This document shows positions 5,544-9,541 of a stretch of DNA of 64,000 bases, piece after piece. The DNA lies in assembly GCF_028830055.1 (NCBI RefSeq), contig NZ_CP101655.1, forward strand, positions 1,554,780 through 1,618,779, given 5' to 3'. The notes under the pieces were generated by a model, which ran no database searches, was not told where the DNA came from, and was given only the letters and a program-made list of their open reading frames with translations. Source of the DNA: Pseudomonas serboccidentalis. Lineage in GTDB: Bacteria; Pseudomonadota; Gammaproteobacteria; Pseudomonadales; Pseudomonadaceae. The position numbers were made by a program, and so were the translations under genes. Position 1 is the first letter of the stretch. Every line of letters starts with the position of its first letter.

Positions 5544-5734
5544 AAAACGACCTTTTCAGGGTTGAGAGCGTTCTGCGTTCTGATGCGCAATCAAGGTCTT
5601 TGGCTCTCGTGAACTTCATCCTTCGCTGGGACAAAGCACACACAAAATCTGCGGCATTATATACTGGCGTCACTGAAACGGAAGCGACACCGCGTTCCGC
5701 GCCCAATCCCGGCGCCGCCCACATCGGAAATCCC

Positions 5735-6379
5735 ATGCAACTCAAGAATCCCATCCTCGGCCTGTGCCAACAGTCCACGTTTATGCTCAGTGCCGCCAAA
5801 GTCGATCAATGCCCTGACGACGAAGGCTTCGAAGTGGCGTTCGCCGGTCGTTCCAACGCCGGTAAATCCAGCGCGCTGAACACCCTGACTCACGCCAGCC
5901 TGGCGCGCACCTCGAAAACCCCGGGTCGCACACAGCTGTTGAACTTCTTCAAGCTAGACGATGAACGGCGTCTGGTCGACCTTCCGGGCTACGGTTATGC
6001 AAAAGTACCGATCCCGCTCAAGCAACACTGGCAGCGTCACCTTGAGGCTTACCTCGGTGGCCGGGAGAGTTTGAAGGGTTTGATTCTGATGATGGACATC
6101 CGTCATCCAATGACCGACTTCGACCTGCTGATGCTCGACTGGGCCGTTGCGGCCGGCATGCCGATGCACATTCTGCTGACCAAGGCCGACAAGCTGACCT
6201 ACGGCGCAGCCAAGAACACGCTGCTGAAAGTGCAGTCGGAAATTCGCAAGGGCTGGGGTGATCTGGTGACGATCCAGTTGTTCTCCGCACCAAAACGCAT
6301 GGGGCTGGAAGAGGCCTACACTGTGTTGGCAGGCTGGATGGAACTGGCTGATAAAGGCGCTGAATTGCCTGCTGAGTAA
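5735..6379 (+). CDS. engB: Ribosome biogenesis GTPase EngB (YihA/YsxC)
   Basis: Small essential GTPase of the TrmE-Era-EngA-EngB family acting in large-subunit ribosome assembly. G motifs are G1 [10 protein letters not shown]3 DLPGYG and G4 TKADK. The frame is open further upstream to 5600, but the ATG at 5735 ([12 protein letters not shown]) gives the usual family start and 214 residues, while the upstream codons look non-coding. It is divergent from the cytochrome c5 gene. Immediately downstream lies the engB-polA intergenic space with the small RNA locus, as in enterobacteria (spf) and P. aeruginosa (ersA). Confidence 0.95.
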
Positions 6380-6388
6380 ATCGCAGGC

Positions 6389-6435
6389 AAAAAAAGCCCC
6401 GGACTTCATATGGGGAGGGAGAAGTTCCGGGGTTT
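6389..6435 (-). terminator. Terminator hairpin of the ErsA-like RNA
   Basis: On the minus strand AACCCCGGAACTTC pairs with GAAGTCCGGGGCTT with one bulge, around a C-rich loop, followed by seven U residues. The polarity of the U run is leftward, so it serves the minus-strand RNA rather than engB. Confidence 0.8.
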
Positions 6436-6521
6436 AAGGTCCGAACCGCTAGGGCGGGGTTCAGATATCTGCCAACACTTAACACAACATAGGAGCATCG
6501 AAGGGCTTCACCAGCCATTCA
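6389..6521 (-). ncRNA. ersA: ErsA-like small regulatory RNA (spf-position locus between engB and polA)
   Basis: The engB-polA gap carries a complete sRNA-like unit on the minus strand: an AlgU-type promoter (6527-6554), a predicted start near 6521, an internal hairpin GAACC...GGTTC (6443-6462) with a C-rich loop, and a strong terminator hairpin (about 6396-6435) ending in a U run at 6389-6395. The terminator loop reads UCCCUCCCC, resembling an anti-Shine-Dalgarno seed. Predicted length is about 130 nt. P. aeruginosa ErsA has the same position, about the same size (132 nt), AlgU dependence and a C-rich loop. Transcript ends are inferred, not measured. Confidence 0.75.
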
Positions 6522-6526
6522 GTATC

Positions 6527-6554
6527 TCTGAGTAGTGAGTTGTCAGATTAGTTC
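6527..6554 (-). promoter_or_regulatory. Candidate AlgU (sigma-22) promoter of the ErsA-like RNA
   Basis: Minus-strand GAACTA (6549-6554), 17-nt spacer, TCAGA (6527-6531). The core matches GAACTT-N16/17-TCtGA with one change in each element, and position fits an RNA start near 6521. Confidence 0.65.
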
Positions 6555-6662
6555 AGATTTTTTTCAAAAAGCTTTGGAATAACGCCAAGCGCGTTTCGAA
6601 ATAAGGTCATTTCGGGCGTTTGCCGCGACGATGTGTCGCGGCAAACGCCCGGGCCAGACGCC

Positions 6663-9467
6663 TTAGTGAGCTTCATCCCAGTTGTTGCCGACGCCGACTT
6701 CCACCAGCAGCGGCACGTCCAGTTTCGCCGCTTCGCTCATGTGCAGGCGGATTTCCTGGCTCACCTGATCGACCAGATCCTCGCGAACTTCCAGCACCAG
6801 TTCGTCGTGCACCTGCAGGATGACTTTGGCGTCCAGTCCGGACGAAGCCAGCCAGTTATCCACCGCCACCATGGCTTTCTTGATGATGTCCGCCGCGGTG
6901 CCCTGCATCGGCGCGTTGATCGCCGTGCGTTCGGCGGCGGCGCGCTCCTGCGGCTTGTTCGAATTGATTTCCGGCAGGTACAGGCGACGGCCGAAGAACG
7001 TCTCGACGTAGCCCTGATCGGCCGCCTGCTTGCGGGTGCGCTCCATGTATTCGCGCACGCCCGGGTAGCGGGCGAAATAGGTGTCGATGTAGGCCTTGGC
7101 GGTCTTGGTGTCGACGCCGATGTCCTTGCCGAGCTTTTGCGCGCCCATGCCGTAGATCAGGCCGAAGTTGATCGCCTTGGCGCCACGGCGCTGATCGGAA
7201 GTCACTTCGTCGAGCTCGACCTTGAACACTTCGGCGGCGGTCGCGGTGTGCACGTCCAGGTTGTTGCGGAAGGCGTTCATCAGGCCTTCGTCTTTGGACA
7301 GGTGGGCCATGATCCGCAGTTCGATCTGCGAGTAGTCCGCGGCCAGCAGTTTGTAGCCTTTTGGTGCCACGAAGGCTTGGCGGATGCGCCGGCCTTCAGC
7401 GGTGCGCACCGGAATGTTCTGCAGGTTCGGATCGCTGGAGGACAAGCGACCGGTGGACGCCACGGCCTGATGATACGAGGTGTGGATGCGCCCGGTGCGC
7501 GGGTTGATCTGCTCCGGCAGGCGATCGGTGTAGGTGCTCTTCAGCTTGCTCATGGAGCGGTGCTCCATCAGCACTTTCGGCAAGCGGTGATCGTCCTCGG
7601 CGAGTTTCGCCAACACTTCCTCGGCGGTCGATGGCTGGCCCTTGGCGGTTTTCTTCAGCACCGGCAGGCCGAGTTTTTCGTAGAGGATCACGCCCAATTG
7701 CTTCGGTGAGCCGAGGTTGAACTCTTCTCCGGCGATCTCGAACGCTTCGCGCTCCAGCGCGACCATCTTGTTGCCCAGTTCAATGCTCTGGATACCGAGC
7801 AGTTCAGCGTCGACGAACGCGCCCTGGCGCTCGATGCGTGCCAGCACCGGCACCAGCGGGATTTCGATATCGGTCAGCACGCTGGCCAGGCTCGGGATCG
7901 CGCTGAGCTTTTCGAACAGGGTCTGGTGCAGACGCAAGGTGATGTCGGCGTCTTCGGCGGCGTACGGCCCGGCCTGTTCCAGGGCGATCTGGTCGAAGGT
8001 CAGTTGCTTGGCGCCTTTACCGGCGATGTCCTGGAAGCTCACGGTGGTGTGGTCCAGGTACTTCTGCGCGAGGCTGTCCATGTCGTGGCGGGTGGCGGTG
8101 GAGTTGAGCACGTACGACTCAAGCATCGTGTCGAAGGCGATGCCGCGCACGTTGATGCCCTGGCTTTGATCGCCGCCGATGGCGCAGTTGGCCAGAATGT
8201 TCATGTCGAACTTGGCGTGCTGACCGACCTTGAGTTTGTTCGGGTCTTCCAGAATCGGCTTGAGCGCGCGCAGCACGGTGTCGCGATCCAGCTGCTCCGG
8301 CACGCCGATGTAGGAGTGGGTCAGCGGGATGTACGCCGCTTCGTTGGCCTGCACTGCAAATGAGAGGCCGACCAACTGTGCCTGTTGCGCGTCGATGCCG
8401 GTGGTTTCGGTGTCGAAGGCGAACAGTTTGGCGTTGTGCAGTTTTTCCAGCCAGACGTCGAAGCGCGCTTGATCGAGGATGGTTTCGTACGCGGCTTCAG
8501 CAGGCGCTGCAGGGGCTTCTGCTGCTGGCGCGCTGAACAGATCGTCGGGCGGCGTGAGCTCGGTGGCTGCGCTCAGTTCCTGGCGCTTGGCGTCGCGATC
8601 CAGATCATTCAGCCAGCTCTTGAATTCCAGCAGGGTGTAGAGCTCGTAGAGTTTGGCCGGGTCTTCCGGGCCCATGCGCAGGTCGTCGAGGCCGATGTCC
8701 AGCGGCACGTCGACCTTGATGGTCGCCAGTTGATAGGAGAGGAACGCCATCTCCTTGTGCTCTTCGAGCTTGGCCGGCAGGGTCTTGGCCCCGCGAATCG
8801 GCAGGGTCGGCACGATGTCGAGCTGCGCGTAGAGCTCGGTCAGGCCGCCGTTGACGCCCACCAGCAGGCCGGACGCAGTCTTCGGGCCGATGCCGGGAAC
8901 GCCCGGGATGTTGTCGGAAGAGTCGCCCATCAGCGCCAGATAATCGATGATCTGCTCCGGAGCGACGCCGAATTTCTCCTTCACGCCCTCCACGTCCATC
9001 GAGCTACCGGACATGGTGTTGACCAAGGTAATGTGGCCGTCGACCAGTTGCGCCATGTCCTTGTCGCCGGTGGAGATGATCACCGGGCGATCCGCCGCCG
9101 CGCTGCTGCGCGCCAGGGTGCCGATCACGTCGTCAGCCTCGACGCCTTCCACGCACAGCAGCGGGAAGCCGAGGGCGATCACGCTCTGATGCAGCGGCTC
9201 GATCTGCACACGCATGTCGTCGGGCATGCTGGGACGGTTGGCCTTGTATTCGGCGTACATCTCATCGCGGAATGTCCCACCCTTGGCGTCGAAGACCACG
9301 GCGAACGGGCTGTCCGGGTACTGCTTGCGCAGACTCTTGAGCATGTTCAGCACACCTTTGACCGCGCCGGTGGGCAGGCCTTTGGAGGTGGTCAGCGGTG
9401 GCAGTGCGTGGAAAGCGCGGTACAGGTAAGACGAACCGTCCACCAGGACGAGGGGGGCTTGGCTCAT
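6663..9467 (-). CDS. polA: DNA polymerase I
   Basis: Okazaki-fragment processing and repair polymerase. The 934-residue protein has an N-terminal 5'-3' nuclease domain (about 1-290; [49 protein letters not shown]). Next is a 3'-5' exonuclease domain (about 330-520) with the DxE motif [10 protein letters not shown]. The C-terminal family A polymerase has motif [13 protein letters not shown], motif [15 protein letters not shown] and motif [11 protein letters not shown]. All catalytic acids look intact, so both nucleases and the polymerase should work. The ATG at 9467 ([13 protein letters not shown]) is preferred over an in-frame ATG four codons upstream, because homologs begin there. Transcribed towards the small RNA locus. 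Confidence 0.97.
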
Positions 9468-9541
9468 GAGCAGAATCAACCTTTTCGGCGGGCCCGGCGC
9501 TAGAATAGCGGGACCGTTGACGACAAAGGGACAAGGTTATC

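Follow-up and report, generated by a model that had tools for sequence, protein, structure and literature searches.

We can say with high confidence that the 64-kb stretch of DNA analysed here (hereafter the window) carries the ersA gene of a Pseudomonadaceae genome, with an AlgU-type promoter and a small RNA (sRNA) that would act by Hfq-aided pairing through C-rich loops and a middle domain. ErsA is already known, and the window copy is an ordinary one that adds one genome to it. The new part is the pattern seen in the same place downstream of polA (the polA slot) in other genomes. By its sequences, this pattern suggests a wider group of RNAs, mostly unrecognised so far, of which ErsA would be one branch. 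Published work is cited from excerpts of the papers named.

When the whole window was searched with the Rfam covariance models, RF01719 (Pseudomon-1/ErsA) matched the minus strand at 6498-6381 with 133.8 bits (E 5e-27) against a gathering score of 50, over the full model (1-116). It is the sole family above the Rfam cut-off anywhere in the 64 kb, and the 6.0-Mb genome has one copy of it. Spot 42, which the original prediction had named for such a search along with ErsA, was unmatched in the window, and the sX13 model (RF02232) gave no match over its cut-off there. Matches to RgsA, miRNA and HCV families fell below the cut-off and were taken as chance. The ErsA-like sRNA proposed for the engB-polA gap is thus borne out, on the minus strand at 6520-6389. 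The accompanying remark that it is unlikely to be listed in automatic annotations fails for Rfam-based annotation, because RF01719 is already in Rfam; the family also figures in a table of a 2010 comparative study (PMC2864571). The features of the locus are as follows.

5735 to 6379, plus strand: engB (ribosome-biogenesis GTPase), convergent neighbour of ersA; from the reading frame and relatives beside homologues, the start being an ATG chosen within the listed frame 5600-6379
6389 to 6520, minus strand: ersA, predicted sRNA of 132 nt; from the RF01719 match, with ends set from the promoter and the U-tract
6389 to 6395, minus strand: U-tract of the terminator; from sequence
6397 to 6432, minus strand: hairpin 3, the terminator stem-loop, whose loop holds UCCCUCCCC at 6420-6412; from the Rfam structure, the fold and a covarying stem
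6441 to 6464, minus strand: hairpin 2, with the C-rich loop CCCCGCCCUAGCGG; from the Rfam structure line and the fold
6470 to 6497, minus strand: weakly paired or unpaired domain, with UGCUCC at 6497-6492 and the conserved block GUGUUAAGUGUUGGCA at 6485-6470; from the homologue alignment
6500 to 6520, minus strand: hairpin 1, at the 5' end; from the predicted fold and a stem covarying in 18 homologues
6527 to 6531, minus strand: -10 box TCAGA, AlgU/sigmaE-type; from motif and conservation
6549 to 6554, minus strand: -35 box GAACTA, AlgU/sigmaE-type; from motif and conservation
6663 to 9479, minus strand: polA (DNA polymerase I), upstream neighbour of ersA; from the reading frame and polA relatives beside homologous RNAs

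The gene order is polA > ersA < engB, with ersA on the polA strand. From 6520, about 7 nt past the -10 box, to the end of the U-tract at 6389, the predicted RNA is 132 nt long, which is the published size of ErsA in P. aeruginosa, where it is described as a separate, sigma22-dependent RNA (PMC5819304). There too the gene is placed in the polA-engB gap (PMC5819304, PMC7264166, PMC8575079 and PMC7565897 jointly). All the elements named in the original prediction lie on the minus strand, and the fit that it claimed to P. aeruginosa ErsA holds, as judged by sequence, for position, size, strand, promoter type and C-rich loop; we found no notable difference in these, in the full-length match to the model or in the number of hairpins. 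A plus-strand transcript was rejected: the overlapping plus-strand stretch folds like its shuffles (z = 0.0), and RF01719 matches the opposite strand.

The predicted promoter, GAACTA and TCAGA separated by 17 nt, is present at 6554-6527. The strict pattern occurs three times in the 64 kb, both strands counted, and the motif alone is weak evidence. It gains weight because GAAC..N16/17..TCNNA is found upstream in all 24 homologous loci, 27-31 nt before the start of the Rfam model in 23 of them and 43 nt before it in L018. In the alignment of homologues both boxes are conserved islands amid variable sequence. The genome also has an anti-sigma gene of the MucA/RseA type (G000:C1:726490-726693), and we infer that ersA would depend on AlgU in the present strain. 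The conserved promoter bears as well on whether there is an independent RNA at all. The hairpins lie directly downstream of polA and on its strand, as would those of a simple terminator of the polA transcript. That reading is most improbable, given a conserved promoter between polA and the RNA and the separate existence of the P. aeruginosa RNA.

The RNA is predicted to form three hairpins (6520-6500, 6464-6441 and 6432-6397) rather than the two first proposed; three are also described for P. aeruginosa ErsA (PMC8575079, legend). The C-rich, anti-Shine-Dalgarno-like loop and the terminator were placed correctly. The fold energy is only mildly below that of shuffled sequences (z = -1.9, with 8 of 200 shuffles equally good), a point against the ErsA reading; the fold by itself is not strong evidence. 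Covariation points to the stems: for two of them in 18 homologues, the number of cells with changes in both pairing partners is 81, compared with 34 on average after shuffling, and no shifted register does as well as the given one. Just past the polA stop, at 6614-6650, lies a perfect 16-bp inverted repeat (GGGCGTTTGCCGCGAC...GTCGCGGCAAACGCCC) without a T-run; no second copy of its arm occurs in the window with up to two mismatches allowed.

The same locus in E. coli has the order polA > RNA < yihA/engB, the RNA being Spot 42 (spf, RF00021), and an early label for the P. aeruginosa gene was 'putative Spot42', with 'conserved genomic context' (PMC3349714). The window RNA could accordingly be read as an orthologue of this carbon regulator, which we consider very unlikely. 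RF01719 alone passes its cut-off in the window; in E. coli, the Spot 42 family does detect Spot 42. With the wider model R3, described below, E. coli Spot 42 scores 14.4 bits (E 0.12), short of the control maximum of 21.0 bits. The window promoter is of the AlgU type, whereas Spot 42 is CRP-regulated and not sigmaE-driven, to go by the title of a cited reference. The identity with Spot 42 was rejected on the model scores; what is shared is the locus.

Spot 42 is reported to encode a small protein as well, and the window copy has an ATG frame of 30 codons beginning at 6498, which raises the idea that the ErsA RNA is also a message. Among the 13 Pseudomonadaceae copies, however, the frame varies in length and sequence or is absent (L004, L008 and L010, for instance), and the other 11 loci have not conserved it. 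The coding reading was rejected on this comparison across 24 loci and is highly improbable.

By analogy with P. aeruginosa, envelope stress would free AlgU from MucA and so permit transcription of ersA from about 6520. Hfq would then help the RNA to pair with the leaders of target mRNAs, presumably through the C-rich loops (the anti-Shine-Dalgarno-like UCCCUCCCC among them) and the U-rich middle domain. Some targets would be lowered, as are algC and oprD in P. aeruginosa, and others raised, as are amrZ and anr. In the excerpts cited, oprD repression is Hfq-dependent (PMC7264166), algC is repressed and amrZ affected positively (PMC5819304), and the positive effect on anr works via domain II (PMC8575079). 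These targets need not carry over to the present strain. Whole-RNA duplex energies, computed for 400 random stretches of the window, were dominated by the length of ErsA, and target prediction by this route was abandoned. Upstream of the likely algC start (in L251, identified by its N-terminus), GGAGCA could pair with UGCUCC at 6497-6492; this six-base match is no evidence for algC targeting.

Within Pseudomonadales, RF01719 exceeded its cut-off in 13 of 293 genomes, all 13 of the window's own family (f1). Below the cut-off it matched 11 loci in 10 genomes of other families, and polA, engB or both adjoin nine of the 11. In family f2, two ErsA-like copies (L014 and L021) have neither polA nor engB in the examined stretch, and the genome G001 has polA on another contig; the gene may have moved from the polA locus in that family. 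A further model, R1, was built from 18 sequences of both groups. As it was trained on 18 of the loci that it later matched, and its E-values are rough (short calibration), it was used only to list families: 34 of 390 Pseudomonadales genomes matched (18 of f1, two of f2, nine of f8 and five of f34), with two copies in six of the nine f8 genomes. Tandem ErsA-like units are seen in Endozoicomonadaceae (L024 980-1760, L023 1317-1720, L026 4127-4660). In G185 each of three units (two ErsA-like copies and a more divergent third) has a sigmaE-like promoter to itself, G226 has two units with nearly identical 5' halves, and Endozoicomonas sp. ISHI1 has two units and a remnant resembling the third, without evident promoter.

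That the polA slot holds a more general pattern was an idea prompted by a first look at 49 polA loci. The survey set consisted of 109 class loci, one genome per gammaproteobacterial family, drawn from 145 polA-bearing genomes besides the window's; the 109 are non-random, the genomes with the highest PolA similarity making up most of them. The counts predate the selection of loci for the models R2 and R3 described below, yet the idea came from the first look, in which 23 of the 109 were already included; one of the 21 loci found to have a C-rich terminator (L100) is among those 23. A fixed scan for intrinsic terminators covered 450 nt downstream of polA on the polA strand, a C-rich loop being defined as one with CCCC, CTCC or CCTC. 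For the control, 20 of these genomes supplied 40 random stretches of 20 kb, in which both strands together had 91 terminators.

C-rich loops were present in 22 of 33 polA-slot terminators (21 loci) vs. 4 of 91 in the control (Fisher p 1e-12). A C-rich loop together with an upstream sigmaE-like promoter was seen in 12 of the 33 (11 loci) and in none of the 91 (Fisher p 2e-8); two of the control terminators had such a promoter. The sigmaE-like motif occurs at 24 of the 109 loci on the polA strand vs. four on the opposite strand, and the control rate predicts about two. In a sample of 26 loci from the order, one of them the window's, five of 13 terminators were C-rich and four were C-rich with a promoter. 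The scan applies strict criteria: even the ErsA terminator of the window goes undetected, and by these criteria 88 of the 109 class loci have no C-rich terminator. Rfam names three of 20 scanned polA-slot loci (sX13 at L100 and anti-hemB at L136 and L153) and one of 18 further loci (ErsA at L059). An anti-sigma of the MucA/RseA type is present in all 21 genomes chosen for that check.

Many of the polA-slot RNAs share one plan: a 5' hairpin, a hairpin with the loop UCCUCCCUGA, a hairpin with the loop CCCCAAG, and a terminator with a mostly C-rich loop. Of 23 class loci chosen for their C-rich loop or promoter, 19 served to train a covariance model, R2. The sX13 locus, both anti-hemB loci and L168, which is without the shared plan, were excluded from its training, which contained no ErsA either. 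Among the 90 class loci outside the training set, R2 matched 24 with E-values of 1.1e-5 or lower vs. a best of 0.18 in 800 kb of control (its E-values, too, are rough from short calibration). It recovered the held-out sX13 locus (35.0 bits, E 1.4e-6) and both anti-hemB loci (L136 with 66.7 bits, E 3.6e-14, and L153 with 37.6 bits, E 3.4e-7). Over 151 whole class genomes, 79 had a match at E 0.001. In 51 of these (19 training and 32 non-training genomes) it lay no more than 3 kb from the 3' end of polA, on the polA strand in 47; the other 28 matched solely elsewhere, which may reflect relocations, contig breaks or false matches. Four genomes outside the class matched in a 160-genome sample of the phylum. 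At L093 (1178-1299 plus, G402) an R2 match of 61.0 bits sits in the polA slot on the strand opposite polA, and matches near polA in G423, G474 and G481 are likewise on the opposite strand.

Three helices with 21 pairs in all were examined in an alignment of 41 members, and both partners vary in 19 of the pairs. The covariation score is 0.386 vs. at most 0.142 for shifted registers, and none of 500 shuffles reaches it; the alignment was fitted to the R2 terminator pairs, and the columns of hairpins 2 and 3 were picked by hand from the rows. For promoter distance we count only the 22 rows held out from R2, the RNA start having been set from the promoter in 12 of the 41. In 19 of these 22 the RNA start lies -1 to 11 nt downstream of the end of the best sigmaE-like match, with at least nine of 12 promoter positions matching in 14 of those 19; sX13 (L100), anti-hemB at L136, and L176 have only seven of 12. 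When the upstream sequence of each was shuffled, the real match outscored 95% of the shuffles in just eight of the 22, so it is the constant position, more than any single score, that speaks for a promoter.

The window ErsA has the position and strand after polA, the sigmaE-type promoter and the C-rich terminator loop of this proposed family. A third model, R3, was trained on 41 class loci selected by R2, with no Pseudomonadales ErsA among them. In the window it aligned ErsA along the whole of the model with a moderate 33.9 bits (E 4.3e-7; next match E 0.41; E-values rough from short calibration), and it gave 28-37 bits to all 11 Pseudomonadaceae ErsA loci presented to it. ErsA ranks first in its own 6-Mb genome, ahead of a runner-up at 27.3 bits, and all 10 f1 genomes for which a match was listed have it as their top match.

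The runner-up, L255 1501-1608 (G000:C1:408387-408494, plus), is predicted to fold into three hairpins, CUCCCC being part of the terminator loop; 9 nt separate it from the end of an upstream GGGAACCT-N17-TCAGA. It matched no Rfam family and is a candidate for a second AlgU-type C-loop sRNA. The third match, L256 (G000:C1:3762314-3762387), is the 3' end of RgsA (RF00628), whose terminator loop is also C-rich.

One may object that ErsA has no kinship with the polA-slot RNAs of other families, that C-loop terminators with sigmaE promoters arose repeatedly, and that R3 sees C-loop terminators generically. R3 scores on a par with that of ErsA (33.1 and 33.9 bits) are attained by attenuator-like leaders in two Pseudomonadaceae genomes (G061 and G020). 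R2, in turn, aligns only the 3' part of the window ErsA (21.5 bits, E 0.0025). Where R3 matches were listed for f34 (five genomes) and f2 (two genomes), moreover, they differ from the ErsA-like copies found by R1; a direct search of the loci of those copies gives them 21-29 bits. We nevertheless regard independent origin as the less likely course, since ErsA is the best R3 match in its own genome and the 10 listed f1 genomes despite the absence of Pseudomonadales from the training, and locus, strand, promoter type and hairpin plan all agree. An R3 score alone is no proof of descent; common descent becomes likely once these are added. L257 and L259, R3 matches that define the background of this model, have a short frame (...AYFFYGYWFS...) leading into strong hairpins, which we read as attenuator-like leaders for aromatic amino acids.

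Our preferred reading, held as probable on comparative grounds, is that ErsA, sX13 and anti-hemB, rather than being separate inventions each confined to its taxon, are branches of one old sigmaE-driven C-loop sRNA gene. It would lie just downstream of polA across much of Gammaproteobacteria (in the GTDB sense, Burkholderia relatives included), carry several anti-Shine-Dalgarno-like C-rich loops, act as a conserved translation brake under envelope stress, and have been multiplied in tandem in Endozoicomonadaceae. ErsA would then be a derived branch, the Pseudomonas form of the class-wide family, and this placement is less certain than its identity. The likenesses to named RNAs are partial. sX13 (RF02232, Xanthomonadaceae) is encoded downstream of polA and has three stem-loops and C-rich loops, which act on G-rich mRNA motifs (PMC3771888); it differs in being reported as Hfq-independent (PMC3771888), in its weak promoter at L100 and in having no ErsA middle domain. 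Anti-hemB (RF02837, Burkholderia) occupies the polA slot at L136 and L153, with a strong sigmaE-like promoter at L153, and is expressed in B. cenocepacia as ncS04 (PMC5688073, table); on the other side, its promoter is weak at L136, it was named for a position antisense to hemB, and it too has no ErsA middle domain. The alpha-r7 sRNAs of Alphaproteobacteria are comparable by description: polA locus, three stem-loops and C-rich motifs (PMC3771888). Agrobacterium PmaR was considered as a further C-loop RNA and set aside, nothing in the excerpts found tying it to polA. Masking of G-rich ribosome-binding sites may be the older mode of action, because C-rich loops are what the wider family shares; domain II pairing may be an addition of the ErsA branch.

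In 2013 the sX13 gene was found only in Xanthomonadaceae, Spot 42 and alpha-r7 were noted at the polA locus, and it was asked whether the polA loci of other bacteria encode sX13-like sRNAs (PMC3771888). The literature searched, with subscription papers largely outside its coverage, held no paper naming both sX13 and ErsA, and none with ErsA, Spot 42 and polA together as whole words. The survey bears on that question: putative C-loop RNAs with sigmaE-type promoters are found in the polA slot of many families, where they have no Rfam name. If the family is true, the sigmaE response of much of the class would have a shared RNA arm, and results obtained with ErsA, sX13 and anti-hemB would be directly comparable.
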